A stretch of DNA of 37,986 bases. Origin: Oscillospiraceae bacterium. Lineage in GTDB: Bacteria > Bacillota > Clostridia > Oscillospirales > Ruminococcaceae. The DNA lies in NCBI GenBank assembly GCA_017415165.1, contig JAFQIY010000032.1, positions 1 to 37,986 of the forward strand. Reading direction: 5' to 3'. Positions 1 to 17,524 of the stretch are shown one piece after another; the stretch's first letter is position 1, and every line of letters starts with the position of its first letter. The translations under genes and the position numbers were made by a program. The notes under the pieces are model-generated. The model worked only from the letters and a program-made list of their open reading frames with translations, had not been told where the DNA came from and did not search any database.

Positions 1-408
1 CTGGTTGATATAAAAAACGGTTTAAGCGAGGATATTCAAAAGCTGCACGATGGTAAAAGCGAGCTTCTTGAAGAAAAGAAAAGTGAGCTTGAACAGCGAA
101 ATGAAATAGTATTATCACAGCGTAAGCAGGAGCTTGAAGAAGAGTACGCCGAAAAGGAAGCTGAGATGAACAAAAAAATTGCTCTTGCTGATAAACGGTC
201 CGAAGCAGCAATCAATGTGTACAATAAAAGTCAGGAATACCGTTTGAAAATAAACGAATTTGTAAAAGGTATTAAGGACGATAATAAGAGAACACAGGCA
301 GAAACGGAAGTCAAGAAGATTAACAGCAGATTTGATGATTATGAATTAGATGAACAGGTTAAATTGATTAAACAGAAACAGATGTGGGATAAGGGAATGT
401 CAATGTAA
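1..408 (+). CDS. 3' end of a coiled-coil protein (5' truncated by window)
   Basis: The frame is open from base 1 and ends at TAA 406-408, leaving about 135 C-terminal residues of a gene that starts upstream. The visible part is almost entirely charged and helical, rich in Lys, Glu and Gln with heptad-like Leu spacing (for example SELLEEKKSELEQRNEIV), so it is very probably a coiled coil. No membrane segment, catalytic motif or known domain is visible. A hairpin with a T-rich flank follows at 431-461, so this is the last gene of its transcript. Its A/T-rich codon use matches the operon that follows. I do not recognise the family; a structural or stress-response coiled-coil protein is only a guess. 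Confidence 0.75.
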   Translation: MVDIKNGLSEDIQKLHDGKSELLEEKKSELEQRNEIVLSQRKQELEEEYAEKEAEMNKKIALADKRSEAAINVYNKSQEYRLKINEFVKGIKDDNKRTQAETEVKKINSRFDDYELDEQVKLIKQKQMWDKGMSM

Positions 409-430
409 CTTTTGATTACAGTAAAAGTAA

Positions 431-461
431 ACGGGTGATGAGCAAATTGTTCATCACCCGT
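431..461 (+). terminator. Intrinsic terminator-like hairpin
   Basis: ACGGGTGATGA and TCATCACCCGT form a perfect 11-bp stem with a 9-nt loop just after the stop of the first gene. The downstream flank is T-rich but lacks a long T run, so termination strength is uncertain. Confidence 0.65.
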
Positions 462-698
462 TGGTTATTCATTTTAGTTTATGAAAGACAATTAATTTCA
501 TACTTACTATATCACTTATATTTTTTGATAAATAAAATTAACAAAACAAATGTTTTTTGTTAAGTGTAAATAAAGATATAATTTATAAAATTAAAATTAA
601 ATGACAAACATTTTTAGTTAAATTGCATAATTTGAAAATATATTTATATTAAAACAAACAAATTTACAGGATAAAATAATTTTATTTTGTAAAACTAT
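462..698. other. Very AT-rich intergenic region
   Basis: About 240 bp of extremely A/T-rich DNA lie between the terminator and the next promoter. I see no open frame with a ribosome site, no RNA gene and no strong hairpin. Loose repeats of the type ACAAATGTTTTTTGTTAA and GACAAACATTTTTAGTTAA occur. The composition would suit an xenogeneic-silencing target or bent upstream DNA, but nothing specific can be supported. Confidence 0.4.
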
Positions 699-727
699 TT
701 GACAAAAATAACTTTAAATGTTATATT
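699..727 (+). promoter_or_regulatory. Sigma-A-type promoter of the dynamin/ATPase operon
   Basis: TTGACA (699-704) and TATATT (722-727) are separated by exactly 17 nt, followed by a leader of about 50 nt before the TTG start at 784. An imperfect ACTTTAA...TTAAAAGT dyad overlaps the spacer and -10 and could be an operator for the HTH protein encoded first in the operon (inference). Confidence 0.75.
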
Positions 728-783
728 AAAAGTACAATAAAATATCGGAAAAAATCTTATTATGTTGAAAAAGGAGGATAACG

Positions 784-1269
784 TTGAAAATAAAAAAAGA
801 GCCAATTCGAATAATGCAGAAACACCTTCAGGTGTTACGGAAAATTAATGGGTGGACTGCTGAAGAACTCGGTCAAAAACTTGGCGTAACTAAACAAACT
901 ATTAGTAATTTTGAAAACAATAAAGTTGAAATGACAAAAACACAGTATATTGCATTGCGCACGATTTTGGAATATGAAATGCGTATAGTTGATGAAAACA
1001 ATGTATTAAAAACAGTAATGTATATACTATTTTATAGTCCGATAAATTGCTGTGATGACGAATATGAAAATGTTAGTGACGCACTAAATAATATTGCGGC
1101 TGCGGCAGTAGGTGGAGTTTCAGGAACACCATTGTCAATATTGGCGACTACAATTTTATCGCCATTAAAAGTTTTAAGGGGAGTTAATATTGAACAAGCA
1201 ATAAGTGTGATGGCTTACAAATGGCTTGAAGAATTAGAAGAGGGGGATTTTGAAAATGCAGAAGGTTGA
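784..1269 (+). CDS. XRE-family HTH regulator with a hydrophobic C-terminal region
   Basis: This 161-residue protein has a Cro/cI-type helix-turn-helix at about residues 10-65 (LRKINGWTAEELGQKLGV followed by TKQTISNFENNKVEM), which should bind DNA. The start is TTG at 784 because AAGGAGG (771-777) lies 6 nt upstream. The C-terminal half (about 90-145) is unusual for a small XRE protein: it is Ala/Gly-rich and hydrophobic (NNIAAAAVGGVSGTPLSILA) and could be a membrane- or ligand-sensing segment. It is first in a tightly packed operon and its 3' end overlaps the dynamin gene. The likely role is autoregulation of the operon, inferred from position. Confidence 0.85.
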   Translation: MKIKKEPIRIMQKHLQVLRKINGWTAEELGQKLGVTKQTISNFENNKVEMTKTQYIALRTILEYEMRIVDENNVLKTVMYILFYSPINCCDDEYENVSDALNNIAAAAVGGVSGTPLSILATTILSPLKVLRGVNIEQAISVMAYKWLEELEEGDFENAEG

Positions 1270-3820
1270 ATTGCATTATGATCCATATAAATTAAAGACA
1301 TTATTAAGTATAGATGGAGTAAATATTGTTGGTCATGCTGATTATTTGGAATTAAGTAATCTTATTGAAATGAAGATGCCGCTTCAATCCTGGATTGATC
1401 CTATAGAATATAAGGGATGGAATGGAATATTGGAAGCATTGAAATCCGACAAATCTACAGATGAAATAGCGTTTGATTTTTATGGAAGAGATATAGATTA
1501 TAATGATTTTGTCAGAGCTTGCGAAAATCAAAATGCTAAGCGTGAGTATAAGCTGATTTTGAACTTTAATCATTATCCAACACGTTCAGATGTTGAAACA
1601 GCAAGAGACATAGAAGACGTAAAAAAAGTAATTTTATCAAAGGAATTTGCTGAAATTATGTCAGATTTCAGCAAGGATTCCGCGGAATATAAAGCGTATC
1701 AGACTGTTGAAGAAAAATATAATCGTGCGAAGAAAAAAGAGTTCAGAGTTGTTTTTGCAGGTTTATATTCAAGCGGAAAATCACTCATTATAAATACGCT
1801 TATCAGACGTGGTATTCTTCCTGTAAGCAATGCTACATGTACTGATAAGACTTGTAGAATAGTGCATGAACCTAGTTATACTGATACCGTATCTATTAGA
1901 TGTCTTGATAAGAATGGCAAAGCAGTTAAAGCATTGCCACGTCAGGAATTTGATACAGACGAAAAATGTCTCGAATATTTTAAAACTATTACACAAAAGC
2001 CGGATTCAGATAAAAAAGTTCCTGATTACGATTCTATTGAGATTCATGTTAATCTTTCACATCTTTATCCTTCTAAAGAAATGGAAGAAATGTTTACGCT
2101 TACAATTGTTGATACACCGGGTACAAACAGCAGCAAAACTGTTGGTATGATAGATGGTGTAAATAATTTGCACAAAGAAATCACTCTTGCAGCAATTAAT
2201 AATCCTGACAAGGATATGGTTGTACTTTGCGTTGATGCGCAAAATTATCAGGATACAAGTCTTGGTGAGCTTATGGTTTCAATATTGAGTACTTCTGAAG
2301 ATGAAAATGGAAGCTTTGCGGATAGATTTATGTTTGTGGCAAATAAATGCGATTGTATTTCATACAAAGATGATGAAAAGCTTGATAACTTTAAAACTGG
2401 ATTTGCAGAGTACCTTATGAACAAGAAACAGTGGGGACTCAATGATAATAACAATTCCTTTGTTCCTAAAATCTTTATGACAACAGCTGGTGTTGAGAAT
2501 GCAATTCAATGCGGTGCTTATAAGTATACTCCGGTAGAACTTAAGGGAAGTAAGGAAAAACGAGATCAGAGTGATATGTATGATAAGTTTGTTAAAGAAG
2601 TTGTAAGATATGAAAATTCTGATTTAATGCTTCTTCAGCATTGTGACATACCTTCTTATCGTTCACAGGAAATGACAGAGAAATATAATAGCTTTGTAAA
2701 TGACAATTCTATACCTGAAGCAGTATCTCTCCAAACAGGTATTCCTTGTATAGAAAGCACAATAAAGGATTACATAGAACGATATGCTTATCCATTCAAA
2801 GTTCGTTCGCTTATGGAGGCTTTTGATATATTGCTTGAAGCAGTTGATGCGGATATTGAACGTAGAAATAAGGCTCTTGAAGAAATTAAAATGCAATTGG
2901 GAAACGTACAAAGCCAAGGAGAGGAGGCTCAAAAGGAAAAAGACGAAACGGAAAGACGAAAAAAGCAGCTTGCGAAGATAAACGAGAGAATCAGCAAGGC
3001 AAAAAGAGAAATTGAAAGAATAAAAATTGAAGGCAAATTAACGCAAATTGCTGAAAATTTTGAATTCGCTATTGAAGACGATGCTGAAATTCAATGGATG
3101 AGGGTGCAGATCAATTCAATGCAATCTAAAGAAGTTATTGATAGACTGGTCAATAATATATTTCTAAAAGTTGAATCTGCTAAAGGAGAAGCTGATAAAA
3201 AATACATGTCATTTGAAAAAAAGTATAAATATACTATTCTTGATATTCTTGAAAAATTAAAGTCGGTATGTCAGGATTTTGAAGACAACGACTATAGTTT
3301 TCAAAAAACTATTACAGGCAAAGAAATAAGCAATTTAGATTTGTCAGGTTTAATTGCAGATGCGGCAGAAGCAGTAAAAGATAGCCGTAAAGAAGTAATT
3401 GTTCAAAAGACTAATCCTGTTAAACAAATTAAATATAAAAAATATCAAATATTTAAGAGATTAGGACAGTTGTTTGCGGATGATTACATAAGTGTAACAC
3501 AAGGCGTATATAGTATGGAGCCACTTCGAAATAGTCTTAATAAGATGATCGCTAGTTTCCGTGTGTTTTGTGAAGAAACAGAAACAGTGTATAAAACAGA
3601 CTTAATGTCTATTCAAAAAAGTGCATTAGAAAAGATTAGCTTATATGCTGCTGAAATTGCTGAACTTAATCAACGAATTGATGACTACAATAAATCATTA
3701 ATGGTTATTAAACAAGACAAAGAAAAATTGCAGTCAGAAATGAACAAACTCAATAAATATTCTAAGAAGCTGAGTATAGCAAGAGAAAAGTTATTGAAGG
3801 GAGGAAATGTAAATGTATAA
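1256..3820 (+). CDS. Dynamin-like large GTPase
   Basis: This 854-residue GTPase has all the dynamin-superfamily G motifs: G1 GLYSSGKS at about 169-176, a Thr-rich switch I (NATCTDKT), G3 DTPG at 286-289 and G4 NKCD at 363-366. A roughly 160-residue unrecognised domain precedes the G domain. Long Lys/Glu coiled coils follow (about 538-600 and 800-845), as expected for the stalk of a bacterial dynamin-like protein. No transmembrane helix is visible, so membrane contact would be through a paddle or a partner. I chose ATG 1256 over TTG 1250 because GAGGGGG at 1240-1246 gives a 9-nt spacing to the ATG. It overlaps the HTH gene upstream and the small gene downstream by 8 nt, so translation is probably coupled. 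Bacterial dynamins remodel membranes and several act in phage defence or membrane repair; the role here is inferred. Confidence 0.9.
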   Translation: MQKVELHYDPYKLKTLLSIDGVNIVGHADYLELSNLIEMKMPLQSWIDPIEYKGWNGILEALKSDKSTDEIAFDFYGRDIDYNDFVRACENQNAKREYKLILNFNHYPTRSDVETARDIEDVKKVILSKEFAEIMSDFSKDSAEYKAYQTVEEKYNRAKKKEFRVVFAGLYSSGKSLIINTLIRRGILPVSNATCTDKTCRIVHEPSYTDTVSIRCLDKNGKAVKALPRQEFDTDEKCLEYFKTITQKPDSDKKVPDYDSIEIHVNLSHLYPSKEMEEMFTLTIVDTPGTNSSKTVGMIDGVNNLHKEITLAAINNPDKDMVVLCVDAQNYQDTSLGELMVSILSTSEDENGSFADRFMFVANKCDCISYKDDEKLDNFKTGFAEYLMNKKQWGLNDNNNSFVPKIFMTTAGVENAIQCGAYKYTPVELKGSKEKRDQSDMYDKFVKEVVRYENSDLMLLQHCDIPSYRSQEMTEKYNSFVNDNSIPEAVSLQTGIPCIESTIKDYIERYAYPFKVRSLMEAFDILLEAVDADIERRNKALEEIKMQLGNVQSQGEEAQKEKDETERRKKQLAKINERISKAKREIERIKIEGKLTQIAENFEFAIEDDAEIQWMRVQINSMQSKEVIDRLVNNIFLKVESAKGEADKKYMSFEKKYKYTILDILEKLKSVCQDFEDNDYSFQKTITGKEISNLDLSGLIADAAEAVKDSRKEVIVQKTNPVKQIKYKKYQIFKRLGQLFADDYISVTQGVYSMEPLRNSLNKMIASFRVFCEETETVYKTDLMSIQKSALEKISLYAAEIAELNQRIDDYNKSLMVIKQDKEKLQSEMNKLNKYSKKLSIAREKLLKGGNVNV

Positions 3821-4319
3821 ATCTTTTGATATCAACGAATTTAAACAAGCACTAAATGAAAAAAATTATTCATATATTAAAACTTGCATTATAAGTGCAA
3901 TTCGCAACAATCCTAGGTTTAATTTTGAAGCTGGAACACAAAAATGTGAAGCAGATCGTGCGTTTGAAGAGGCAATAAATGCATGTCCTGAGATGCTAGA
4001 GGAATATCATTTGCTTGAAGATGAGGTTGCTTTTGAGCAAAGTAGTTCTGATGAGTGGGATTATGAATATTTTATTCGTCAGACATTTAGATTTGGACGA
4101 AATTTCTGCAAAAAAAGATATGACAATATAAAGAAAGTAGGAAAGACAATATCATTAAATTTTCCTCAGCCACAGGAACAACAAAAAGAAGCACACCAAA
4201 TACAAACCCCAGACAACAATATGCAGCGCAAAAACAGATTTCCAAAACTGGCAATTCTTCTGGGGGCAATAATAGCAGTTCTCGTTCTTGTGGCAATACT
4301 GATAGTCAAGGTGTTTTAA
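3813..4319 (+). CDS. Small protein with predicted C-terminal membrane anchor (possible frameshift)
   Basis: As read here the product has 168 residues: a mostly helical N-terminal domain (1-105), a Pro/Gln-rich linker (PQPQEQQKEAHQIQ) and one strong C-terminal transmembrane helix (LAILLGAIIAVLVLVAILIV) preceded by basic residues, that is, a tail-anchored topology. GGAGG at 3800-3804 serves ATG 3813, which overlaps the end of the dynamin gene. I do not recognise the family. Context suggests a membrane partner or recruiter for the soluble dynamin. Odd point: the -1 frame stays open across the linker and runs past this stop to TAG 4403-4405 with plausible protein sequence (KLFGSAAKDLGKIVANTARD), ending 2 nt before the ATPase gene. 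The C-terminus may therefore be altered by a frameshift near the A5 tract at 4183-4187. Confidence 0.7.
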   Translation: MYKSFDINEFKQALNEKNYSYIKTCIISAIRNNPRFNFEAGTQKCEADRAFEEAINACPEMLEEYHLLEDEVAFEQSSSDEWDYEYFIRQTFRFGRNFCKKRYDNIKKVGKTISLNFPQPQEQQKEAHQIQTPDNNMQRKNRFPKLAILLGAIIAVLVLVAILIVKVF

Positions 4320-4405
4320 AACTTTTCGGAAGTGCAGCAAAAGATTTAGGGAAAATTGTTGCCAATACTGCAAGAGATTCTTTTAATAATAAGAAAGGAA
4401 GATAG
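4320..4405 (+). other. Alternative-frame C-terminal extension of the small gene
   Basis: Reading in the -1 frame from about 4188, the sequence stays open through a Ser/Asn/Gly-rich stretch (KTGNSSGGNNSSSRSCGN) into an amphipathic helix-like tail and stops at 4403-4405. Third positions are mainly A/T, like the neighbouring genes. The otherwise gapless operon would have an 88-nt hole here if only the 168-residue product were real. Confidence 0.4.
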
Positions 4406-4407
4406 CA

Positions 4408-7400
4408 ATGGACGAAAGAAACTTTGCTGATTTATATGCAGCTTTTGAAAGTGCTGATTTTCTTGTTCTGAAAAAATATGTCAATGAACTCGAACGTTTT
4501 CGCATATATGATGAAATTGACGAAATAAAAAAAATACCTATAGGCAGCAATCTTTGCCTTCATCATATTGAAAAGATAGTATATGATGTTAAAGAAAATA
4601 TACATGATAAACTTACAACGGTTTATTCTTCCTTATATTCTGACAAGGAAACTGCACTTGTTTTATTATTGAACGGAACAGAAAATGGTGTTGATATATA
4701 TATTGGTGCAGCAAACAGAAATGTTGGCGTAAACGGAACAGTACTTCCAAAGACTATAGATAACATGGGAAATGCTTTCGAAGGAATTATGGAAGGCCAT
4801 TTTCCTGGCACGGTAGTAAAGAGAATTAATGGTGAAGAAACGAAAAAGTTGATTGAAAAATGTTTTTCGAATGTGAATGCAATTGCTGCAGTAAGCGGAA
4901 TAGCTGCTCTTCGCAACCAAAATGAAGCTAAAAATGAAGAGTTTGTTCAAGGTATGGAAAAGCTTATTGATTCTATGCGTGGAAAAACGTATACAGCGGT
5001 TTACCTTGCTGATGTTATGTCTGCAAGCAAAATAGAATCTCTTTGTTCGACGTATGAGGATATTTATTCAAATATTTCTCCGTTTAAGCAATCTGTGCGT
5101 ACACGAAACGAGAGCGATGCTTCAACGGGTACGACAGGCACTGTTGAAGGTGTAGTAAATACTATTAATAAAAGTATAGCCAAAGCAACTTCGCACAGTA
5201 CTTCCGAAAGCAAAACTAAAACTCATACCGTAGGTGGTGGAGTTAGTTATATTGCATCAATAAACTATAATTATTCTAATGGAAAAACCAACGGTAAAAC
5301 TGATGGTAAAACTAAAACAAATACTTTTGGAAAGGCACTGTCTAAAACATCACAAAGCTCTTTTTCAAATGCATTTACTAAAACAAAGGGTGAGTCTCTT
5401 CAGATAACATATGACAATAGAGCGGTACAGACTTTACTTGAGCGTATTGATGAGCAGATACATCGTTTGCGTAGTTGTGAGGATTTTGGTATTTTTGACA
5501 GTTGTGTGTATTTCCTTTCTAACAAGTATGAAAATGCTGTTGCTGCAGCAAGTACATATAAATCTATGGTTCGCGGAGAAAATTCATCTGTAGAATCGTC
5601 TGCAATAAATGTATGGACAGATAAGGAACGCATAGGGATTATAAATGAATATCTGACAAAGTTTTATCATCCATTATTTGCTATTAATGATTATATGCGA
5701 GTTACTCCCGCAATGTTGGTAAGTGGGAATGAATTGTCGTATCAGTTCTCGTTGCCAAAGAAATCTGTAAGCGGGCTGCCTGTTATTTCTTGTGCAGAGT
5801 TTGGAAGAAACGTTATGACAGTTGATGGCAAAGGTAATGGAGATTTGGACATTGGTAAAATTTATCATATGCATCATACTGAAAATAGTGATGTGGAAAT
5901 TTCATCTGATGCACTTACTGCTCATACTTTTATTACAGGTTCAACAGGTTCAGGAAAATCAAATGCGGTATATCAGTTGTTGGACAAGCTTACAGAGGAT
6001 AAAAAAAGAACATTTATGGTAGTTGAGCCTGCAAAGGGAGAATACAAGGATGTATTCGGTAATCGCAAGGATGTGTTTGTTTATGGGTCAAATCCGCAGT
6101 TGACGCAATTACTTCGTATTAACCCATTCCGTTTTCCTTCAAGCACACATATTTATGAGCATATGGACAAGCTTGTTGAGATATTTAATGTATGTTGGCC
6201 TATGTATGCAGCAATGCCTGCCGTACTGAAGGCGGCTCTTGAAAATGCATATATTTCTGCTGGCTGGGATTTGACTACATCATGTAACGTTACAGGTACT
6301 GAGTTGTTCCCTACGTTTTCGTCAGTTGCTGCAGAAGTGAAAAAGTACATTGATAGTTCTGAGTATTCTGAAGAAAACAAGAGTAACTATAAAGGTGCTT
6401 TGCTCACTCGTCTTGAATCTATGACAAACGGAATTAACGGAATGATATTTTCTGCAGATGACATTTCAGATGAAGATTTGTTTGATAAAAATGTTATAGT
6501 TGATTTAAGTCGTATAGGGTCTGTTGAAACAAAGGCTCTCATAATGGGTATTCTTGTTATGCGTATGCAAGAATATCGTGCGGGAACTTGTCTGAAAAAC
6601 AGTAAACTAAAACATATTACTGTTTTGGAGGAAGCGCATAATCTTCTTAAACGTACGTCAACCGAACAAAGCACAGAAGGGGCTAATCTTGTAGGTAAAT
6701 CTGTAGAAATGCTTGCAAATTCCATTGCAGAAATGAGGACATATGGCGAAGCGTTTATGATAGTTGACCAAGCTCCTGGTCTGTTGGATATGTCTGTTAT
6801 CCGCAATACAAACACAAAAATCATTCTTCGTTTACCTGACCATTCGGACCGTGTTCTTGTTGGACGTGCAGCTAATCTGAATGAAGAACAGATTAATGAG
6901 CTTTCGAAGCTTAAGACAGGCATTGCAGCTGTATACCAGAACAATTGGATCAATCCAGTGTTGTGTCAGTTTGAAAAATTTAAAGACGAAGAAAATGTTT
7001 ATTTCCGTCCAGACCGTCGCGATTACCGAGATAAAGCACCCAAGGAAATTCTTAATGTCATCATGAAGGATGATATTCGTAAAAAGCTTGATGATGTGGA
7101 TTATGAAAGAAAAATCCGACATGACATATGTGTTTCGAAGCTTCCAGATTCACTTAAGGTTCTTATTCTTAAATATCTTAATGGAGACAAAGAAAAGACA
7201 AAGGCAAAATATATCGCAGAAATTGCGTATAAATTCTTTGATGCGGAAAGTATTTTTAACCGTATGAATAACGTTGATGATATGGAGAGCTGGAAGCAGA
7301 ATATGATTGCAAAACTTTTACCTGATGTTAAGGATTTTGCGGAAGCGGAAATATCAAGATTGTTGGCAATGCTTCTTCATGAACACTATCTTGCTCACAA

Positions 7401-7464
7401 TGACTTTAAGCCTCTTTATTTGAGCTATATGGAGCATATTGATAATAGTAGAAATTTAGGGTAA
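4408..7464 (+). CDS. HerA/FtsK-like P-loop ATPase with a large unrecognised N-terminal region
   Basis: This 1018-residue protein has a DUF87/HerA-type motor in its second half. Walker A is GSTGSGKS at about 511-518, followed by MVVEPAKGEYKDVFG typical of the family. Walker B is ITVLEEAHNLL at about 737-747, with a sensor/arginine region (NTKIILRLPDHSDR) near 800-813. The N-terminal 500 residues are not recognised. They contain a Ser/Thr/Lys-rich low-complexity segment (about 225-330) with three NGKT/DGKT repeats near 5278-5320, and a helical segment that could be an oligomerisation or docking region. AAGGAAG precedes ATG 4408. HerA-like ATPases pump or unwind DNA, or pair with nucleases in several defence systems; here no nuclease is adjacent but a metallopeptidase is. 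The substrate is unknown. No transmembrane helix is evident. Confidence 0.85.
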   Translation: MDERNFADLYAAFESADFLVLKKYVNELERFRIYDEIDEIKKIPIGSNLCLHHIEKIVYDVKENIHDKLTTVYSSLYSDKETALVLLLNGTENGVDIYIGAANRNVGVNGTVLPKTIDNMGNAFEGIMEGHFPGTVVKRINGEETKKLIEKCFSNVNAIAAVSGIAALRNQNEAKNEEFVQGMEKLIDSMRGKTYTAVYLADVMSASKIESLCSTYEDIYSNISPFKQSVRTRNESDASTGTTGTVEGVVNTINKSIAKATSHSTSESKTKTHTVGGGVSYIASINYNYSNGKTNGKTDGKTKTNTFGKALSKTSQSSFSNAFTKTKGESLQITYDNRAVQTLLERIDEQIHRLRSCEDFGIFDSCVYFLSNKYENAVAAASTYKSMVRGENSSVESSAINVWTDKERIGIINEYLTKFYHPLFAINDYMRVTPAMLVSGNELSYQFSLPKKSVSGLPVISCAEFGRNVMTVDGKGNGDLDIGKIYHMHHTENSDVEISSDALTAHTFITGSTGSGKSNAVYQLLDKLTEDKKRTFMVVEPAKGEYKDVFGNRKDVFVYGSNPQLTQLLRINPFRFPSSTHIYEHMDKLVEIFNVCWPMYAAMPAVLKAALENAYISAGWDLTTSCNVTGTELFPTFSSVAAEVKKYIDSSEYSEENKSNYKGALLTRLESMTNGINGMIFSADDISDEDLFDKNVIVDLSRIGSVETKALIMGILVMRMQEYRAGTCLKNSKLKHITVLEEAHNLLKRTSTEQSTEGANLVGKSVEMLANSIAEMRTYGEAFMIVDQAPGLLDMSVIRNTNTKIILRLPDHSDRVLVGRAANLNEEQINELSKLKTGIAAVYQNNWINPVLCQFEKFKDEENVYFRPDRRDYRDKAPKEILNVIMKDDIRKKLDDVDYERKIRHDICVSKLPDSLKVLILKYLNGDKEKTKAKYIAEIAYKFFDAESIFNRMNNVDDMESWKQNMIAKLLPDVKDFAEAEISRLLAMLLHEHYLAHNDFKPLYLSYMEHIDNSRNLG

Positions 7465-7484
7465 TTTCAGAAAGGAGAACAACT

Positions 7485-8177
7485 ATGAGTGGATTTGAAA
7501 CAATAAAAGCTGAACTTCCAGAGATTCATATGCCAGAAACAACAAATGATGTCGCACAGGATGTAAAATTTGGTATGGAGCCGACAATTTCTGAAGAAAA
7601 AGCAGATTGTATTTTTAATGAGCTTATGTCTGATTATAATGTGCAATCTGAAGATATGCTTATAAAGGAGTATGCTTTTGATATTGTCGATCTTATAGGT
7701 TATAGTGAAGAGGATTTCTCATTCGATGATATGAAGTTGGATATTGATGTTCTTAAAGAGTATACATCTTTATTTGATGAAGAAGCATGGGAGTCTTTTG
7801 ATACAATTGAAAAAATAAATGCAATAAAGCAATTTGGTGAAGCGTTGGCAGATCAACTTGGCATTGTGGATGTCCCAAATATAGAAGTTTATCGTGATTT
7901 ATTAGGACGATATGGAGCTTATTATCCAGATGATAATAAGCTGAAAGTTAATGTTTTATATATTGATGATGCCAAGGAAACATTAGATACTGTTGCACAT
8001 GAAATGAGACATGCATATCAGCGAATGAGAGCTTATAATCCTCAAACAGAAGAAGATTATAAGTATAAAGCTAATTTCAATGAATATATTTATTCAAACG
8101 CAAATTTTAGTATGTATCAAAGTCAATATGTAGAAGCAGAAGCAAGGGCATTTGCAGATTATATTAAAAATTTATAA
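7485..8177 (+). CDS. HExxH zinc metallopeptidase-like protein
   Basis: This 230-residue protein has an acidic N-terminal half and a C-terminal metallopeptidase-like domain. HEMRH at about 172-176 supplies the zinc-binding histidines and catalytic Glu. A downstream EAEARAFAD motif near 219-227 supplies the likely third ligand. The pattern (VAHEMRHAYQ, later an Asn/Tyr-rich segment, then EAEARAFA) resembles metallopeptidase domains found in polymorphic toxins and phage proteins. No signal peptide is visible, so it should act in the cytoplasm. AAAGGAG lies 8 nt before the ATG, 20 nt after the ATPase gene. It could be the effector protease of the operon or a processing enzyme; no substrate is evident. 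Confidence 0.75.
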   Translation: MSGFETIKAELPEIHMPETTNDVAQDVKFGMEPTISEEKADCIFNELMSDYNVQSEDMLIKEYAFDIVDLIGYSEEDFSFDDMKLDIDVLKEYTSLFDEEAWESFDTIEKINAIKQFGEALADQLGIVDVPNIEVYRDLLGRYGAYYPDDNKLKVNVLYIDDAKETLDTVAHEMRHAYQRMRAYNPQTEEDYKYKANFNEYIYSNANFSMYQSQYVEAEARAFADYIKNL

Positions 8178-8189
8178 GGAGTGCAGAAT

Positions 8190-8483
8190 ATGAGCATTAT
8201 TTATGATTATTACGAAGGAGTAAAACTTCATCCATCGCTTATTAAAATATGTGTTGATTTATTTGACAAACATCCTGATATTAAAAAGGAATTTGAATAT
8301 TGGATTGAAGAACGCAAATACATTTCCAAAAATTGCGTTGAGGTTGAAGGATATACAGCTGAAAGCATAGCAAAAGAATTTCCTGTGCTTGATGGTGAAG
8401 GAGCTTTTAATTTACTGGTTCAGTTAAGAGAAAATCCTGAAAAAGCCAAAAAACAAATTAGTCGAGGATTCCGTGTTAAATAA
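8190..8483 (+). CDS. Small hypothetical protein, last gene of the operon
   Basis: This 97-residue protein is of mixed charge and predicted helical. AAGGAG (8176-8181) lies 8 nt before ATG 8190, so I prefer that start over the GTG at 8181. It begins 12 nt after the metallopeptidase stop. I do not recognise a domain; the C-terminus is basic (PEKAKKQISRGFRVK). Its place after a protease raises the idea of an inhibitor or immunity partner, but this is inference only. A bidirectional terminator follows. Confidence 0.7.
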   Translation: MSIIYDYYEGVKLHPSLIKICVDLFDKHPDIKKEFEYWIEERKYISKNCVEVEGYTAESIAKEFPVLDGEGAFNLLVQLRENPEKAKKQISRGFRVK

Positions 8484-8528
8484 CTATACGACTAGGAAAT
8501 ACCGCCTATTATTTTGTTATAACAAATC

Positions 8529-8564
8529 AATCACCACCGTATTTCATTTGATACGGTGGTGATT
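8529..8564. terminator. Bidirectional terminator between convergent operons
   Basis: AATCACCACCGTAT and ATACGGTGGTGATT form a perfect 14-bp stem with an 8-nt loop. It sits between the plus operon ending at 8483 and the minus cluster ending at 8620, so it can serve both. Confidence 0.8.
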
Positions 8565-8619
8565 TCATATCCATTGTATTAGTGTTTTCTTTAAAACTTA
8601 TTTATGAGACATTTAAAGG

Positions 8620-8838
8620 CTATTTGTCATTTTCTTCTTGTTCTATGAAAGCAAATAATGAAATGCCATAATCTTCACATCCACAAGGAAACATAGCAAT
8701 AGCGTCTTCTATTGGCATACCATATGTATCTTGGCCATTATCAGTTCGTTTGCCATAACCGGCACAGACAGTCCCACAATTAAACTCACATGTGTAACAA
8801 GATTTTTCAGTACCTTTGTTTATAAATTTATTATTCAT
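8620..8838 (-). CDS. Small cysteine-rich protein
   Basis: This 72-residue protein has six cysteines arranged as CYTCEFNCGTVC and later CGC, suggesting a metal- or Fe-S-binding site. AGGAGG lies 6 nt before the ATG at 8838. It is the third gene of a minus-strand cluster headed by the protein starting at 9672, 48 nt after the middle gene, and ends at the shared terminator. I do not recognise a named family. Confidence 0.65.
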   Translation of the reverse strand: MNNKFINKGTEKSCYTCEFNCGTVCAGYGKRTDNGQDTYGMPIEDAIAMFPCGCEDYGISLFAFIEQEENDK

Positions 8839-8886
8839 ATTATACCTCCTAACAATACTTTCAATTATGTATGATAAATTAAATTT

Positions 8887-9087
8887 TTAAGTTATGTAAT
8901 CACACTTCAAACCTAACGATTTAGTAAATTCCATATCAATATCACCTTGCACATCATAAATAATTGAGTTGATAAGATTACCATTTGTATCCCACGATTT
9001 TGTTTTTGCATTATGTTTTTCTTTAAAAGCTTCATAATTCCAAAGATGAACATAGTTGTTACTTGCTGAATGTACTTTTATAAGCAT
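8887..9087 (-). CDS. Small hypothetical protein
   Basis: This 66-residue protein has AGGAGG about 7 nt before its ATG at 9087. It starts only 3 nt after the stop of the upstream gene, so the two are cotranscribed and probably translationally coupled. The sequence looks like a small globular domain rich in Asn, Tyr and Trp. No motif or family is recognised. Confidence 0.6.
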   Translation of the reverse strand: MLIKVHSASNNYVHLWNYEAFKEKHNAKTKSWDTNGNLINSIIYDVQGDIDMEFTKSLGLKCDYIT

Positions 9088-9090
9088 TCT

Positions 9091-9672
9091 TTAGTCCTCC
9101 TGATGATTGGCTGGAAATGATACTTCAGTAATTGCTCTGTATTCAGAATCCATAGGTTCCTCACCTACTGACTGACGAATAAATTTTTCTCGGTCAAATT
9201 TATATATGTTACGTTCATTGGAGTAAATGTATCCAAATCTGTTATGAAGGTATTCTTGTATCTCCGGAGAATCTATACCAATTTTTAAAGCGATTTCCTT
9301 CAACTCATTTTTTATCATAGCATAACCCATTTCATCATTTATAAAAATGCCATTCTGACATTTTTCAATGAATGAATTATTATCAATAACATAATCTATT
9401 TTTATAGCTTTTCCTGTATCTCGTAAGTGCAGTTTAAAACCTGTTATATCTATTTTGACTTCAGCTACTTTTTTTTCAAGAAAATCCATACACAAATCAA
9501 TAAGATAATCTTCAGCAAACCATCCCATATTATCCAATAGCAGTTGATTTAATGCAACATTAACCAGTTCATTTTGCGGACGATTAAGTTTTACTGACAG
9601 TGCTTCTAAATCACTTTCCATGTTAGCTTCTATTCTAAAACTTTTTTGAATGGATATTTTTTTGGATAACAT
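9091..9672 (-). CDS. Ribbon-helix-helix-like DNA-binding protein
   Basis: This 193-residue protein has an N-terminal segment (about residues 5-45; SIQKSFRIEANMESDLEAL, then RPQNELVNVALNQLL) with the strand-helix-helix pattern of RHH/MetJ-Arc repressors. The remaining 140 residues are an unrecognised acidic domain. ATG 9672 is chosen because AGGAGG lies 7 nt upstream; the longer frame to 9723 would start inside the operator. It heads a three-gene minus-strand cluster under a perfect 20-bp inverted repeat, which suggests autorepression. The arrangement resembles a toxin-antitoxin or small accessory cluster, but no toxin family can be named. Confidence 0.65.
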   Translation of the reverse strand: MLSKKISIQKSFRIEANMESDLEALSVKLNRPQNELVNVALNQLLLDNMGWFAEDYLIDLCMDFLEKKVAEVKIDITGFKLHLRDTGKAIKIDYVIDNNSFIEKCQNGIFINDEMGYAMIKNELKEIALKIGIDSPEIQEYLHNRFGYIYSNERNIYKFDREKFIRQSVGEEPMDSEYRAITEVSFPANHQED

Positions 9673-9687
9673 AGATAACCTCCTAGT

Positions 9688-9737
9688 GGTATACAATATA
9701 ATTGCAACTAAATTTAATTGCAATTATATTGTATACC
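9688..9737 (-). promoter_or_regulatory. Perfect 20-bp inverted repeat overlapping the promoter
   Basis: GGTATACAATATAATTGCAA (9688-9707) is exactly mirrored at 9718-9737 around a 10-nt A/T spacer. On the minus strand a TTGCAA box and TATATT are 17 nt apart inside the palindrome, so it covers a likely promoter. AGGAGG and ATG 9672 follow directly. It is very probably the operator of the RHH-like protein. Its symmetry also offers a possible rightward promoter. Confidence 0.75.
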
Positions 9738-9838
9738 ATCGCTTTCTATTTGTCAAGCATTTTTATTATATTTCAATCTTATTTGCCAAATGAGGACAGT
9801 ATTACGTTTGCAGATTTAAATGAGCTTATGAATTTATG
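9738..9838 (+). pseudogene. Possible remnant of a plus-strand gene 3' end
   Basis: A frame without a start or ribosome site reads LPNEDSITFADLNELMNL and stops at 9836-9838, just before a terminator-type hairpin. The acidic, Leu-rich end looks coding-like, so it may be the 3' scar of a deleted gene. Evidence is weak because the frame is short. Confidence 0.25.
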
Positions 9839-9848
9839 ATGAAAAATC

Positions 9849-9875
9849 AACCCGTCATTAATCAGGTGACGGGTT
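9849..9875 (+). terminator. Intrinsic terminator-like hairpin
   Basis: AACCCGTCA and TGACGGGTT form a 9-bp stem with a 9-nt loop followed by TTTTGG. The stem resembles the hairpin at 431-461 (ACGGGTGATGA). No intact plus-strand gene precedes it, so it probably belonged to the remnant upstream. Confidence 0.6.
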
Positions 9876-9915
9876 TTGGCTTCGCGTTCATCACTCGTAA
9901 ATTATTTTTATTATG

Positions 9916-9945
9916 ACGAAATTCGCAACTTCTTGCGAATTTCGT
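9916..9945. repeat. Perfect 13-bp inverted repeat, 4-nt loop
   Basis: ACGAAATTCGCAA and TTGCGAATTTCGT flank a CTTC loop just upstream of the HTH promoter. It could be a terminator without a T run, or an operator or structural hairpin. Confidence 0.7.
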
Positions 9946-9954
9946 TCAATTATA

Positions 9955-9983
9955 TTGACAAAACATCTTTGAAGATGTATACT
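9955..9983 (+). promoter_or_regulatory. Promoter with a palindromic spacer before the HTH gene
   Basis: TTGACA (9955-9960) and TATACT (9978-9983) are 17 nt apart. The spacer holds the dyad CATCTTTGAAGATG (9964-9977), an obvious place for a repressor to block RNA polymerase. The HTH protein encoded next is the natural candidate (inference). Confidence 0.75.
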
Positions 9984-10018
9984 TAAGTTAAAGAAAATGT
10001 TAATTGGAGGTGCTCGTC

Positions 10019-10231
10019 ATAAGAATCAGTTATAAAAAGCTGTGGATATTGCTTATTGAAAAAGAAATATCGCCGGCAACGCTCCGAAAAGACCTTAATA
10101 TTGCAACGGGAACAATGACGAAGCTGAGAAAGAATGAGGAAGTGGCACTTTCTGTTCTTCTGCGAATTTGCGAGTATCTTGATTGTAATATCGGGGATAT
10201 ATGTGATGCGGTGAAAATTGTGGAGATGTAA
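10019..10231 (+). CDS. Small XRE-type HTH regulator (possible ATA start)
   Basis: This protein of about 70 residues is almost entirely a Cro/cI-like helix-turn-helix (SYKKLWILLIEKEISPATLRK, helices two and three around GTMTKLRKNE, then ICEYLDCNIGDI). The family usually begins with Met just before the RISYKKLW-type sequence. Here the ribosome site TTGGAGG (10004-10010) points to ATA at 10019, 8 nt downstream, with no ATG/GTG/TTG at that place. The in-frame TTG 10004 and GTG 10010 lie within the ribosome site itself. Translation may therefore start at a non-standard codon, or the start was mutated from ATG. It overlaps the promoter region of its own module and leads into the papain-like gene almost without a gap. 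Confidence 0.7.
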   Translation: MRISYKKLWILLIEKEISPATLRKDLNIATGTMTKLRKNEEVALSVLLRICEYLDCNIGDICDAVKIVEM

Positions 10232-10232
10232 A

Positions 10233-10721
10233 ATGATGGATATAAAATTTTTGGAAACCATTGCACAGGATTTTCGTAATGCGTTAGAAATAGTAGTAGA
10301 TAAACGATTATATGGCAGATTGAAGATATTTGAAAGATTTCCTAACGGATGTTGTCGGTATACAAGTGATTTGTTGGCTGAATATATGCTGAGCAAGGGA
10401 ATACCTATGGAGAGTATTCAAATGATTGATTCTGAATCTAACTCCGAACAATATACACATTGTTGGTTAGTTATAGATAATAACATTATAGTTGATGTAA
10501 CTGCTGACCAATTTAATTATGAGCCATATTTCAAAAAATATGAACCTATTCCTAGTGCTTATGTTGGAATGAGCAATGCCCAATATTTACACAGTTGTTT
10601 TTACAATTCCACAATGCAGAGTAACTATAATATAGGAATAAATTCATATTGTGGAGATACTCCTGCAAAACTTAAAATTGTCTATGATGCTATTATAGAG
10701 CAAATTGAAAGCCATTCATAA
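10233..10721 (+). CDS. Papain/transglutaminase-like Cys-His-Asp protein
   Basis: This 162-residue protein has the order expected of a papain-like fold hydrolase: Cys at 40/41 in FPNGCCRYTSDLL, His76 in THCWLVID and Asp88/Asp92 in IIVDVTADQF. Proteins of this pattern are related to transglutaminase/NlpC-like peptidases, amidases and deamidases; the exact reaction cannot be told. GGAG (10222-10225) serves ATG 10233, 1 nt after the HTH stop. The next gene starts 12 nt after its stop. No signal peptide or membrane segment is seen, so it is cytoplasmic. It may be an effector of this module. Confidence 0.65.
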   Translation: MMDIKFLETIAQDFRNALEIVVDKRLYGRLKIFERFPNGCCRYTSDLLAEYMLSKGIPMESIQMIDSESNSEQYTHCWLVIDNNIIVDVTADQFNYEPYFKKYEPIPSAYVGMSNAQYLHSCFYNSTMQSNYNIGINSYCGDTPAKLKIVYDAIIEQIESHS

Positions 10722-10733
10722 AGGAGTTTGAAC

Positions 10734-12530
10734 ATGCAATTTTGTACTAACTGTGGTCATCAATTAGTTGACGAAGCGAACTTTTGCGCAAAGTGTGGCA
10801 AGTCTGTTGCAAAAATAAATAACATCCAACGTTCGCAAGAATGGGCAGGTGAACTTATAAAGTGCCCTGAATGTGGAGAAGTGATAAAATCGTTTGAAAT
10901 AAATTGTCCTTCATGCGGACATGAGTTGAGAAATATAAAAACCTCAAATGCCGTTAAAGAATTTGCATTAAAATTAGAAGCTATTGAAGCAGGACGTGAA
11001 TATGAAAAACCTCGTGGACTATTCTCATCACAAGAAGCACTTCAAAGGGTGTCAAAAACAGATGAGCAGAAAATTAGTCTTATCAAAAGTTTTTCTGTTC
11101 CTAATTCAAAGGAAGATATGCTTGAGTTTATGATTCTTGCAACTTCAAATATGAATATGACTACATATGATTATTATTCAAATACTTCTATATCAAAAGG
11201 TGAAAAAGAATTAAATGCTGCATGGTATTCAAAAGTACAGCAAGTTTATGAAAAGGCTAAGAGAAGTTATTCGACAGATAATATATTTGTTGAGATAAAA
11301 AGCTTATATGACAAATGTAATGAGAATATAAAAAAGTCCAAAAAAAGAGGTGTAATCAAGTGGATATTAATGTTTGGCCGGGTACCTTTGGTATATATTA
11401 TTTTAGTTCCATTTTTAATTATCACAAACTCTGAACAGGAAAAACAAGAACTCGAAAGATTAGATAATATAGTTGTTGAAGTACAAACCGCATTGGAAAA
11501 CGAGGAATATAAACATGCATTAAGAATTGCTGATTCCATTGATTATCGGAGAAGTGATGTAGAAATGGAAAGAAAGTGGGACATCCAGCGACAATATTGG
11601 GTAGAAAAAGTACTTGAAGAAGCTGCTGAAAAAGGTATCCAGTTAGAGTATACTCCTAGTGAGGATATTGATAATGCGAATGATAATGATGAAGAAGTGA
11701 CAACGCATGAAGGTTTTATTGATGGACTTGAGGAAGGTTTACAACCTGGTTTAGAAGAAATGGAAAAGAACATCGATGAATTTAATCGTATAATAAATGG
11801 TGAGGACTTAGATATTACCGAAAAATTTGTTGAAAATGAGCCTAATCTCAATACAGAAGTGGTTGAAACAGATACAGTTACACTACAATCAACTGAAACA
11901 GTTCAATCAACAAATGTTGATATCACTATCAGTATCGAAAAAGGTACACAATATACATATGGTCACGATGAATGGGATTTGTATTGTGCTACAGCTATTT
12001 CTGATTCAATTATTAAAATCGAAAAATGGAGTAAAAAATTATCTTCTGAAAAAAGCTTTGATTATGAGTATGAAGTCGGTTCATTTAAAATTACAGATTC
12101 ATCAAATGAATTTTGTTGGATAGATAATGAACATACGGCATTTGCATTCAATTTACAAGATAAACATAGTTGGGATTTTAAAAAGCCTAAAGAAATTACT
12201 TTTTCTATTTTAGAAACCAACAGCGATACAAATAAGGGTACTAATATTAATAGTGATACTATATTTTACTCTTATCAAAATGATGATTGGCATTTATATA
12301 GAGCTGTATTATTAACAGAATCAATTATTAAAATTGAATGTTGGTATAGGTCTTTTGCTATTGGTGACTTCAATTACGGATATGATGTTGGTGTGATTAA
12401 TTTAGAGGATACTACAACAGATTTTGAATGGATAGATGATAAGCACATCTCATTTGCACTGTCACTACAAGATGAACAAAATGGAGAATTGAAAGAAACA
12501 ACATTTGTTACATTTACATTACATAACTAA
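10734..12530 (+). CDS. Double zinc-ribbon membrane protein with tandem C-terminal repeats
   Basis: This 598-residue protein begins with two zinc ribbons (Cys4, Cys7, Cys18, Cys21, then CPECG and CPSCG by about residue 65). It has a single transmembrane segment near 206-230 (WILMFGRVPLVYIILVPFLI). After an acidic helical region, two similar domains of about 90 residues follow (about 398-497 and 508-597), sharing DEWDLY/DDWHLY, SIIKIE, DYEYEVG/NYGYDVG and WID(N/D)(E/K)H. The expected topology is ribbons inside, repeats outside. AAGGAG precedes ATG 10734. It pairs with the SPFH gene 12 nt downstream, like zinc-ribbon membrane proteins next to YdjI-type SPFH proteins in envelope-stress loci of Bacillus (known association; role here inferred). 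Confidence 0.75.
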   Translation: MQFCTNCGHQLVDEANFCAKCGKSVAKINNIQRSQEWAGELIKCPECGEVIKSFEINCPSCGHELRNIKTSNAVKEFALKLEAIEAGREYEKPRGLFSSQEALQRVSKTDEQKISLIKSFSVPNSKEDMLEFMILATSNMNMTTYDYYSNTSISKGEKELNAAWYSKVQQVYEKAKRSYSTDNIFVEIKSLYDKCNENIKKSKKRGVIKWILMFGRVPLVYIILVPFLIITNSEQEKQELERLDNIVVEVQTALENEEYKHALRIADSIDYRRSDVEMERKWDIQRQYWVEKVLEEAAEKGIQLEYTPSEDIDNANDNDEEVTTHEGFIDGLEEGLQPGLEEMEKNIDEFNRIINGEDLDITEKFVENEPNLNTEVVETDTVTLQSTETVQSTNVDITISIEKGTQYTYGHDEWDLYCATAISDSIIKIEKWSKKLSSEKSFDYEYEVGSFKITDSSNEFCWIDNEHTAFAFNLQDKHSWDFKKPKEITFSILETNSDTNKGTNINSDTIFYSYQNDDWHLYRAVLLTESIIKIECWYRSFAIGDFNYGYDVGVINLEDTTTDFEWIDDKHISFALSLQDEQNGELKETTFVTFTLHN

Positions 12531-12542
12531 GGAGGTCTACAT

Positions 12543-13907
12543 ATGGGTATATTCGATAGAAACAAAAGAAAAGGCGGATTTATGGATGAAATCCGTTGTG
12601 ATGAACCGTCTTATCTTATCTGGAAATGGCATCCGTCAGGTGTACAGCTTGGCGAAAGTAATCGTGAAAATGCTATCCGTTGGGGCTCATCACTTCGTGT
12701 AAAGGACGGCGAGGTTGCTGTTTTTGTATATAATCAGGATAATGAAATCTATCAGGAATTTATTGTTGGTCCTTATGATGGAATACTTGAAACTTCAAAC
12801 GTTCTGATTAACGCACCTATAATCGGACTTGCCTATGAGGGCGGAACTCCATTTCAGGCAGAGGTTTATTTCATCAACCTTGCACAGATTATTCAGGTGA
12901 AATTCGGTGTGCCGTTCTTCGATGTGTACGACCCAAGATTTGCTGATTTCGGAGTGCCTGTTGCTGTCAGAGGTACAATCAGTTTCAAAATCAGCGATTA
13001 CAGAGAATTTGTCAAGCTTCACAGGCTTAACAGCTTTAATCTTGAGGAGTTTCAGAAGCAGATTCGTGATGCTGTTTGCCGTTACGTCAAGGATGCTGTT
13101 GCAAACGCACCTGCCGCGAATAACATTCCCGTAATTCAGATTGAAAGCAAAATTTCAATGATTAATGACGCTGTTGAGTATGATATAAGTGAACGTTTGA
13201 AAGAAAATTTCGGAGTAACAGTTTCCGGTGTAGACATTGGTGCAATCGAAATTGACAAGACAAGCGACGGCTATGCAAAGCTGATGGCAGTTACACAGAA
13301 GGCAACTATGGAAACCGTACACGCACAGACTTCAGCAAACGTGAAGGATATTTATGACAGACAGCGTGCTGATGCAGAAAATTACGCTGAAACTCTGCGT
13401 ATGCAACGTGAAGAAGCACAGTATGCACAGCATAAGCAGACTCAGAGTGCAAATTTTGCGGCATTTCAGGCAGAAAAGCAGGCTGATGTTGGTATTGCAG
13501 GTGCAGAAGCTCTCGGTAAAATGGGTGCAAGCGGAGCGGGTAATGTAAATATCGGTGACGGCACAGGCTTTAATCCTGCTGCAATGATGGCAGGTATGGC
13601 TATGGGCGGTGCAGTTGGTCAGAATATGGCAGGCATGATGAACAATATGATGTCAGGTATGAACCAGCAGACTTCTGGTGCTGTACCACCTCCGATTCCG
13701 AAGATTACATATCATGTTGCAATCAATGGAGAAGCTAAAGGACCTTTCGATGAAGCAGCACTTACAGCTATGGCTGTTAACGGTCAGCTCACAAGAACAA
13801 GCCTTGTGTGGAAACCGGGAATGAGTGAGTGGGTTAAAGCTGATGATGTTGATGAGCTGAATGGTGTATTGGCTAATGTTATGCCGCCGATTCCTCCGAT
13901 GGGATAA
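12543..13907 (+). CDS. SPFH-domain protein with C-terminal GYF_2 domain (YdjI-like)
   Basis: This 454-residue protein has an SPFH/band-7-like domain at about residues 15-235, then a helical Ala/Gln/Glu-rich stretch. A Gly/Met-rich low-complexity segment follows (about 330-375), then a C-terminal GYF_2 domain (about 395-445; GEAKGPFDEAAL and LVWKPGMSEWVKA). This is the architecture of the 'virion core protein'/YdjI family, which sits on membranes and in Bacillus helps recruit the phage-shock protein PspA. No transmembrane helix is present. AAGGAGG lies before ATG 12543, 12 nt after the zinc-ribbon gene. Its codon use is less AT-rich than its neighbours, so it may be a core gene or have a different history. 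It likely forms a membrane scaffold for the module. Confidence 0.85.
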   Translation: MGIFDRNKRKGGFMDEIRCDEPSYLIWKWHPSGVQLGESNRENAIRWGSSLRVKDGEVAVFVYNQDNEIYQEFIVGPYDGILETSNVLINAPIIGLAYEGGTPFQAEVYFINLAQIIQVKFGVPFFDVYDPRFADFGVPVAVRGTISFKISDYREFVKLHRLNSFNLEEFQKQIRDAVCRYVKDAVANAPAANNIPVIQIESKISMINDAVEYDISERLKENFGVTVSGVDIGAIEIDKTSDGYAKLMAVTQKATMETVHAQTSANVKDIYDRQRADAENYAETLRMQREEAQYAQHKQTQSANFAAFQAEKQADVGIAGAEALGKMGASGAGNVNIGDGTGFNPAAMMAGMAMGGAVGQNMAGMMNNMMSGMNQQTSGAVPPPIPKITYHVAINGEAKGPFDEAALTAMAVNGQLTRTSLVWKPGMSEWVKADDVDELNGVLANVMPPIPPMG

Positions 13908-13990
13908 TTAAATTGTGGAAGTAAAAGGAGATTGATTTTCTGAAAAGAAATCTAATGTAATATATTTCGTAAAATCAATAAGTCAAAAGA

Positions 13991-14038
13991 AAAACACCAC
14001 CAAGGTTAGGCCGAATAGCCTGATCTTGGTGGTGTTTT
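13991..14038. terminator. Bidirectional terminator hairpin, repeat copy A
   Basis: AAAACACCACCAAG pairs exactly with CTTGGTGGTGTTTT, with an inner GGTTAGGC/GCCTGATC stem. It lies between the convergent SPFH (+) and DGQHR (-) genes and ends in A and T runs, so it can stop both transcripts. The hairpin and the tail to about 14095 match the copies at 17402 and 18891. Confidence 0.8.
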
Positions 14039-14095
14039 ATAGGTATACGAAAAATCCAAAATTACTTCCAGCATAAATTAGTTCTTTTATTTGAG
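13991..14095 (+). repeat. Dispersed hairpin-plus-tail repeat, copy A
   Basis: After the hairpin the tail reads TTATAGGTATACGAAAAATCC and then CAGCATAAATTAGTTCTTTT. It aligns with copy C over about 100 bp, well past the stem, so the likeness is common descent and not just a shared terminator shape. Confidence 0.65.
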
Positions 14096-14143
14096 AGTAT
14101 TTTTATTTATACTGCTTTACTGGGATACCTATTTTAAACAACA

Positions 14144-16429: not shown

Positions 16430-16457
16430 TTTTTATCACCTTTCGTCAAAATAATTT

Positions 16458-17264: not shown

Positions 17265-17401
17265 TATTTATTACCTTCCATTACGTTTCTAAAAACATCG
17301 TTAAATAGTATAATATACAATATTATAGCACAAATTGTATATAAACGCAATAATATTGCACAATTATTTTATAAATAATAAATTGATTATTAGCTAAAAA
17401 T

Positions 17402-17462
17402 ACAACTCCAAGGTAAAGCATAACAGCCTAACCTTGGGGTTGTGTTATAGGTGTACAATAAA
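17402..17462. repeat. Dispersed hairpin-plus-tail repeat, copy B
   Basis: ACAACTCCAAGGT...ACCTTGGGGTTGT forms the hairpin (17402-17442) and the tail reads GTTATAGGTGTACAATAAA. It matches copies A and C. Unlike them it lies between divergent genes (methylase - and AlbA +), where no terminator is needed unless leftward read-through occurs; T-rich sequence on the minus-strand side would fit leftward termination. Confidence 0.65.
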
Positions 17463-17470
17463 TAAAATAA

Positions 17471-17506
17471 ACTTGATAATAAGTGAATAATAACTTGACA
17501 TTAAGT
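17471..17506 (+). promoter_or_regulatory. Two phased operator dyads
   Basis: ACTTGATAATAAGT (17471-17484) and ACTTGACATTAAGT (17493-17506) are near-identical dyads exactly 22 bp apart, two helical turns. The second overlaps the -35 box. TTAAGTGTAT is also repeated at 17501 and 17512. This fits cooperative autorepression by the downstream protein. Confidence 0.6.
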
Positions 17507-17524
17507 GTATTTTAAGTGTATAAT
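17495..17524 (+). promoter_or_regulatory. Promoter of the AlbA-domain gene
   Basis: TTGACA (17495-17500) and TATAAT (17519-17524) with an 18-nt spacer give a strong sigma-A-type promoter and a short leader of about 25 nt to ATG 17555. Confidence 0.8.

Follow-up and report, generated by a model that had tools for sequence, protein, structure and literature searches.

A HerA-like ATPase and dynamin locus with interchangeable putative toxin/immunity cassettes

The toxin and immunity families considered here have been described by Zhang et al. (2012; PMC3482391), where they belong to other secretory routes. The abstract of that paper refers to at least eight secretory systems; those named in its text include types II, V, VI and VII, PVC and TcdB/TcaC. 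Within the first 300,000 of its 357,715 characters, the word "dynamin" occurs 0 times and HerA appears only in connection with type VII. Here, we analyze a DNA window, by which we mean the whole contig of 37,986 bases, that encodes a dynamin-family GTPase and a HerA-like ATPase next to a candidate toxin/immunity pair. The first-pass annotation had not recognized this combination as a named system, and that assessment holds in the sources covered. A search of PADLOC-DB 2023 gave no named system with this combination, yielding only cross-matches to HerA, mad8 and LeoA. Among the open-licence PMC papers listed, we found neither an account of a dynamin/HerA polymorphic toxin locus nor a paper that joins dynamin and HerA/FtsK with a polymorphic toxin or SUKH. 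A check for an exact match to a named system, a conjugation locus or a housekeeping locus likewise returned none. A dynamin/HerA apparatus with toxin cassettes was therefore not found described before; the toxin and immunity families themselves are already known.

All six open reading frames of the locus lie co-directionally on the + strand between positions 784 and 8483, as previously annotated, in an assembly of 2.62 Mb in 75 contigs with an estimated completeness of 93.21%. The first encodes a Cro/CI-type HTH regulator of 161 aa (784–1269; Pfam HTH_3, 1.1e-07). It is followed by the dynamin-family GTPase of 854 aa (1256–3820; Pfam Dynamin_N, 7.8e-12, with G motifs), which starts at an ATG within a frame that opens at TTG 1250, and by a small, predicted tail-anchored membrane protein of 168 aa (3813–4319), recognized by its C-terminal hydrophobic segment. 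Next come the HerA/FtsK-superfamily ATPase of 1018 aa (4408–7464; Pfam DUF87/HerA, 1.2e-11), a putative toxin composed of a leader and a zinc-metallopeptidase domain (7485–8177; DUF6782 putative metallopeptidase, 3.3e-05, below cut-off), and a probable immunity protein of 97 aa (8190–8483; ATG start in a frame opening at GTG 8181), whose homologues stand behind peptidase homologues. Pfam matches and motifs thus bear out the HTH, dynamin and HerA-like identities originally assigned. The layout needs some correction. Spacing had been called tight or overlapping throughout, which fails between the small-protein and ATPase genes, as these are separated by 88 nt. The best promoter-like site within 400–8900 (699–727, + strand; TTGACA-17-TATATT with an extended TG) ends 57 nt ahead of the first gene and, as a consensus match alone, agrees at 11 of 12 positions. 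The dynamin gene itself contains a second 11/12 site, at 2662, and the 48 sites found in this interval exceed chance only slightly (38.1 +/- 6.6 in shuffles). Downstream, a hairpin with a 14-pair stem (8529–8564) scored as terminator-like for the minus strand only, so that the scan does not support the "bidirectional" terminator once proposed.

The middle of the ATPase (about residues 226–335) is rich in Ser, Thr and Gly, which together make up 44%, and the protein scores 108.6 bits against NF033849 ("serine-rich protein"; cut-off 650). Residues G511, T513, G514, G516 and K517 are invariant in a 25-row alignment. Hydropathy analysis revealed no membrane-spanning stretch in the window ATPase. 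In six of the 31 related loci defined below (L019, L021, L028, L037, L039 and L068), the Ser-rich middle contains a hydrophobic, glycine-rich stretch.

For comparative analysis, we assembled 31 loci whose ATPase scores >450 bits against that of the window. They comprise the window itself, four contigs of named genomes, five plasmids, one phage-labelled contig and 20 loci from further genomes; L067/L071 and L072/L082 are near-copies, and L023 and L025 derive from one genome. In the latter (G279), the two copies reside on two contigs and differ in leader and toxin. Records of the locus span Bacillota, Bacteroidota, Spirochaetota and Pseudomonadota, and the distribution of the ATPase is sporadic: with the window's own genome included each time, a threshold of E 1e-20 retrieved it from 13 of 295 genomes in the order, and one of E 1e-40 from 14 of 391 in the class and 6 of 398 in the phylum. 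A related operon is present in one of 5,426 E. coli genomes, on a plasmid. Annotated plasmids of Treponema, Lactococcus and E. coli carry the series dynamin, dynamin, small protein, ATPase, HNH nuclease, and SMI1/KNR4 or hypothetical gene. L018, from a Clostridium MAG, is the partner of the window in a maximum-likelihood tree, with support of 100/100. The constant core is the HerA-like ATPase, usually accompanied by a protein with what we call an NPY domain. Close ATPase homologues occur with related partners in the 30 other loci, which supports the earlier claim that the genes form one unit and answers the call to look for partner co-occurrence in other genomes. The idea that the six genes form a fixed set is not supported: the peptidase and last gene interchange with other cassettes, and the GTPase is missing or replaced in some loci.

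The gene behind the ATPase is variable. In 23 of the 31 loci, a toxin-like gene lies directly 3′ of the ATPase gene, the two being −128 to +148 nt apart, and some toxin is present in 26. (Partners were counted with HMMs made in this work and motifs within 9 kb of the ATPase, toxins within 6 kb.) The toxin HMMs gave 30 matches among 856 ORFs of the fetched loci, 24 of them starting right after an ATPase, including 23 within the 31 loci, and six elsewhere; as these HMMs were made from the same effectors, matches in the slot are partly there by construction. They found no toxin in L021, L039, L072, L073 and L082. Independently of these HMMs, nuclease toxin families exceed the Pfam cut-off in 18 of the 31 loci, in a scan of 30 effectors or second effectors besides the window's. 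WHH and/or Colicin-DNase account for L025–L030, L036–L038, L062, L068 and L070, Endonuclea_NS_2 for L019, L020, L024 and L076, LHH for L040, and GH-E for L067. The DUF6782 peptidase of L069 is likewise over the cut-off; the effectors of L018, the window and L075 (a TNT-like match) fall below theirs, and the "HNH-like" label given to L023 and L069 is a call made by eye, with no Pfam match. Beside more distant ATPases, we find LHH and TNT effectors (L031) and a glutamine deamidase (L032). The effector chemistries are thus unrelated, comprising nucleases of two folds, a peptidase and a TNT-like protein, with the glutamine deamidase and TNT near the more distant ATPases. The toxin is usually followed by an immunity-like gene. 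Among 21 proteins tested in this position, nine match SMI1_KNR4/SUKH, five DUF6985, two YezG-like families and one SUFU. A second toxin/immunity pair is present in L069 and L031. Inspection disclosed no signal peptide on the effectors, and the Pfam matches listed for the 31 effectors include no trafficking domain of a known route, though such a domain could escape a profile match.

We compared the N-terminal leaders of 27 effectors (351 pairs). One of them, leader A, is common to L020 (NUC), L023 and L069 (both HNH-like), L068 (WHH) and the second effector of L069 (peptidase); the listed pairs with different toxins among these have z values of 6.8–13.5. Leader B is common to L019 (NUC) and L037 (WHH; z 16.0). 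For the family, then, a shared N-terminal part precedes different toxin domains, and the recurrence of the same leader before unrelated predicted toxin domains in two groups of loci is a hallmark of polymorphic toxins. Over the first 55 residues, leader similarity is positively correlated with ATPase identity (rho 0.23 for 251 pairs with different toxin labels); 0 of 2000 permutations were as high, a count that is not a clean probability because the sequences are related. A few effectors carried labels of their own ("lead-only", "split") in this test, which omitted L071 and the second L069 effector. The leader of the window scores 1.0 bit against an HMM of leader A, a value that 825 of 5000 shuffles reached, and among the 27 leaders compared it takes part in none of the significant pairs.

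In the window, the effector slot holds the peptidase. Its ORF encodes a disordered leader (about residues 1–60) and a zinc-metallopeptidase domain (about 65–230) with the motif HEMRH and E217; HExxH, a third ligand and a zincin-like fold are all present, and DUF6782 matches at 23.7 bits against a Pfam cut-off of 27. The peptidase had been proposed as the effector, and the comparison supports this; the toxin/immunity arrangement itself had been overlooked. The last gene has no Pfam match, and we therefore looked to its homologues. L069 encodes a peptidase homologue and, directly behind it, a 98-aa last-gene homologue (47% identity over 95 aa); the two make up the second pair of that locus, after a nuclease with its own partner. 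The peptidase domain also forms the end of a 564-aa L094 protein, whose N-terminal part is long and acidic; a last-gene homologue comes next (41%, E 2.5e-17), and a distant ATPase lies about 8.7 kb away. Within the order (295 genomes), a member of the last-gene family was found in one genome besides the window's own, where it adjoins the best peptidase homologue. Given that the two genes stand side by side in two unrelated loci, the 97-aa product is a probable immunity protein. An immunity-type gene directly beside the toxin is thus seen for the last-gene family in L069 and L094, and for SUKH and other families elsewhere. L018 has the peptidase, with no partner homologue found in the 559 nt up to the contig end, and peptidase homologues in L090, L095 and L096 (a viral contig) have no detected partner. 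As judged from gene content, the predicted toxin and immunity genes of the window are one interchangeable cassette among several.

The remaining partners point to the membrane, in agreement with the placement first suggested for the dynamin and the small protein. The GTPase contains GLYSSGKS, DTPG and NKCD; with these G1, G3 and G4 motifs and 46 bits for Dynamin_N (cut-off 27), it belongs to the dynamin family. It also carries the conserved N-terminal NPY domain (about residues 1–174) and coiled coils. NPY-domain proteins occur in 22 of the 31 loci, often fused to a dynamin GTPase, and 18 loci encode a GTPase that has G1 and DTPG motifs. L018, L038 and L039 have the NPY domain without a GTPase; in L068 an NPY-like stretch at the start, seen by eye and not as an HMM match, precedes Sel1 repeats; and the G1/DTPG pair was also not seen in L026, L072, L073, L075 and L082. 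Some loci, the closest relative L018 among them, lack the GTPase or carry a substitute, so that the GTPase is a common but exchangeable part of the locus, not a universal one. In the small protein, a single segment is strongly hydrophobic; it lies at the extreme C-terminus (hydropathy 3.43, starting at residue 147 of 168) and is a predicted tail anchor. Members of its family are present in 12 of the 31 loci, and 12 of 13 small proteins tested have such an anchor. By an HMM made in this work, ten of the 31 loci have a WYL-like regulator; that of the window is not WYL-like. The ATPase and the dynamin are each single-copy in the window genome.

The genomic surroundings offer several further observations. 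In 2-kb steps, GC content is 0.30–0.39 over 1–18 kb of the window versus 0.41–0.47 over 18–36 kb, and the low-GC stretch (1–18900) suggests an island ending near 18–19 kb. Beyond the operon, this stretch encodes a zinc-ribbon protein and, behind it, an SPFH/Band_7 protein that carries a GYF_2 domain (10728–13907, + strand), a DndB/DpdB-like protein (DndB, 5.1e-16) adjoining a Dam-type D12 adenine methyltransferase (14144–17264, − strand), and a Schlafen AlbA_2 protein with a winged HTH (17516–18847, + strand). In L023 (139–4739), the BREX genes pglZ and brxL lie directly ahead of the dynamin, ATPase and toxin genes on the same strand, with a gap of 115 nt. Integrase-like proteins, recognized as such by eye and with near-identical N-termini, adjoin two ATPase loci (L073, 6868–8019; L082, 1289–2428) and the peptidase cassette of L094 (6547–7677). 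L025 has, on the opposite strand, a second, distant ATPase followed by a small Ser/Gly-rich protein (15964–19783). Two cyanobacterial plasmids (L085, 7009–11758; L086, 6911–11905) encode, in the same order, a P-loop/GTPase protein, a distant DUF87 ATPase and two conserved small genes.

Taken together, the data lead us to favor, with some reserve, a polymorphic toxin/immunity system whose dedicated ATPase/GTPase apparatus would handle or export the toxin. Its parts deserve different degrees of confidence. The toxin/immunity cassette is very probably just that. The ATPase likely handles protein: because the effector chemistries are unrelated, the effector protein is a more probable common substrate than DNA. 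Export of the toxin or its delivery to other cells is perhaps a shade better than an even bet. Several findings weigh against the favored reading: the leader of the window is in none of the significant pairs, five loci lack a toxin by the HMMs used, the peptidase homologues of L018 and L096 have no detected partner, the effectors show no visible signal peptide, the window ATPase has no membrane-spanning stretch, its nearest solved relatives act on DNA, and several loci adjoin defence genes. The alternative in which the ATPase pumps invading DNA into an effector nuclease, in the manner of HerA-NurA or HerA-nuclease defence, has on its side the DUF87/HerA profiles, the DNA-acting HerA proteins that are the nearest solved relatives by PDB sequence, and the nuclease domains of most identified effectors. 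DNA is not the substrate of peptidase and TNT-like effectors, however, and neither the immunity-like genes behind the effectors nor the disordered leaders swapped among toxins fit such a role, which makes DNA capture quite improbable. We regard as slightly less probable still a plasmid or conjugation function, with a coupling-type ATPase and an addiction or entry-exclusion cassette. TrwB_AAD_bind does match the ATPase (9.2e-08), plasmid records account for five of the 31 loci, and a relaxase-like gene, identified by eye, lies 3′ of the L024 cassette on the other strand; but no relaxase or mating-pair genes were recognized in the window, and the locus also sits on long contigs of up to 4.26 Mb (L068). 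That the genes are chance neighbors without joint function, as the differing partner tails might suggest, is scarcely credible given the adjacency of ATPase and toxin in 23 of 31 loci at such short gaps.

The main rival is that the locus acts within the cell, in abortive infection: the GTPase and membrane protein would sense a membrane change caused by phage, the ATPase would free the toxin, the infected cell would stop growing, and the partner protein would be an antitoxin. Defence-related genes beside the loci give this reading its weight. They include the DndB/DpdB-like and Dam-type genes in the low-GC island of the window and the pglZ-brxL genes ahead of L023, as well as a methyltransferase and MzaE (L029), AbiD (L037), type I restriction (L027) and a weak DpdH (L069), from a comparison without control loci in which seven of ten proteins picked by eye were matched and three were not. 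The faint resemblance of the dynamin to LeoA and the lack of a visible signal peptide or known secretion leader on the effectors are also in line with it. On the other side, rapid toxin swapping with matching immunity, SUKH partners and tandem pairs (L069, L031) are typical of inter-bacterial weapons (Zhang et al. 2012; PMC3482391), and suicide does not need multiple toxin chemistries that lack a shared sensor. Overall, we consider abortive infection unlikely but worth keeping in mind. The first-pass idea of anti-phage membrane surveillance thus survives as the chief competitor, although the cassette pattern does not favor it.

How might the favored polymorphic toxin system work? The toxin would be made with an unstructured leader and kept inactive by its immunity protein. 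The leader may pass the toxin to the ATPase ring for unfolding or threading, while the NPY-domain/dynamin and tail-anchored proteins could hold the ring in place on the membrane and reshape the bilayer. The toxin would then exit the cell or enter a neighbor, where, in the case of the window, its target would be a protein cut by the peptidase; kin with the same immunity gene would survive. Put in its most specific form, the locus would be an unnamed, horizontally spread machine for toxin export or delivery, built from a HerA-superfamily ring ATPase, a membrane-docked NPY/dynamin protein and a tail-anchored partner, and recruiting its cargo by a short disordered leader. We offer this version tentatively, at somewhat less than even odds. 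If it is correct, a compact mobile locus with a HerA motor, a dynamin and swappable cassettes becomes a candidate new toxin route, and bacterial dynamins gain a testable job. Routes that move toxins, such as types V, VI and VII, have each opened a field. If the toxins act inside infected cells instead, the locus would link polymorphic toxins to phage defence. The zinc peptidase and the 97-aa protein, which has no Pfam family name, also present themselves as a candidate new toxin/immunity pair.

Like type VII secretion (EssC/YueA), the locus associates an FtsK/HerA-superfamily ATPase with toxin/immunity genes. Unlike type VII, none of the 31 effectors scanned matches LXG/WXG at the thresholds used; in the window genome (93.21% complete by estimate), the best type VII scores are below cut-off for both EssC (114 of 778 bits) and WXG100 (22 of 27 bits). 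Eleos (LeoABC) shares with the locus a bacterial dynamin, and the LeoA profile matches weakly over parts of the protein (1.6e-07, 28.8 bits); Eleos is not known to include a HerA ATPase, a toxin or an immunity gene. SIR2-HerA, DUF4297-HerA and HerA-NurA similarly have a HerA-fold ATPase adjoining an effector gene. Compared with the ATPases of these defence systems, that of the window has roughly double the length and includes N-terminal and Ser-rich domains; it falls far below the curated HerA_antiphage cut-offs (46.3 of 800 bits for NF042943 and 29.3 of 850 bits for NF042944). The locus also corresponds to the polymorphic toxin systems described by Zhang et al. (2012; PMC3482391). Both have WHH, LHH, GH-E and NUC domains as C-terminal toxins, SUKH, SUFU or YezG-like immunity genes next door, one N-terminal part on different toxins, and tandem second pairs. 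What sets the present loci apart is their constant neighbors, a HerA-like ATPase and an NPY-domain/dynamin protein.
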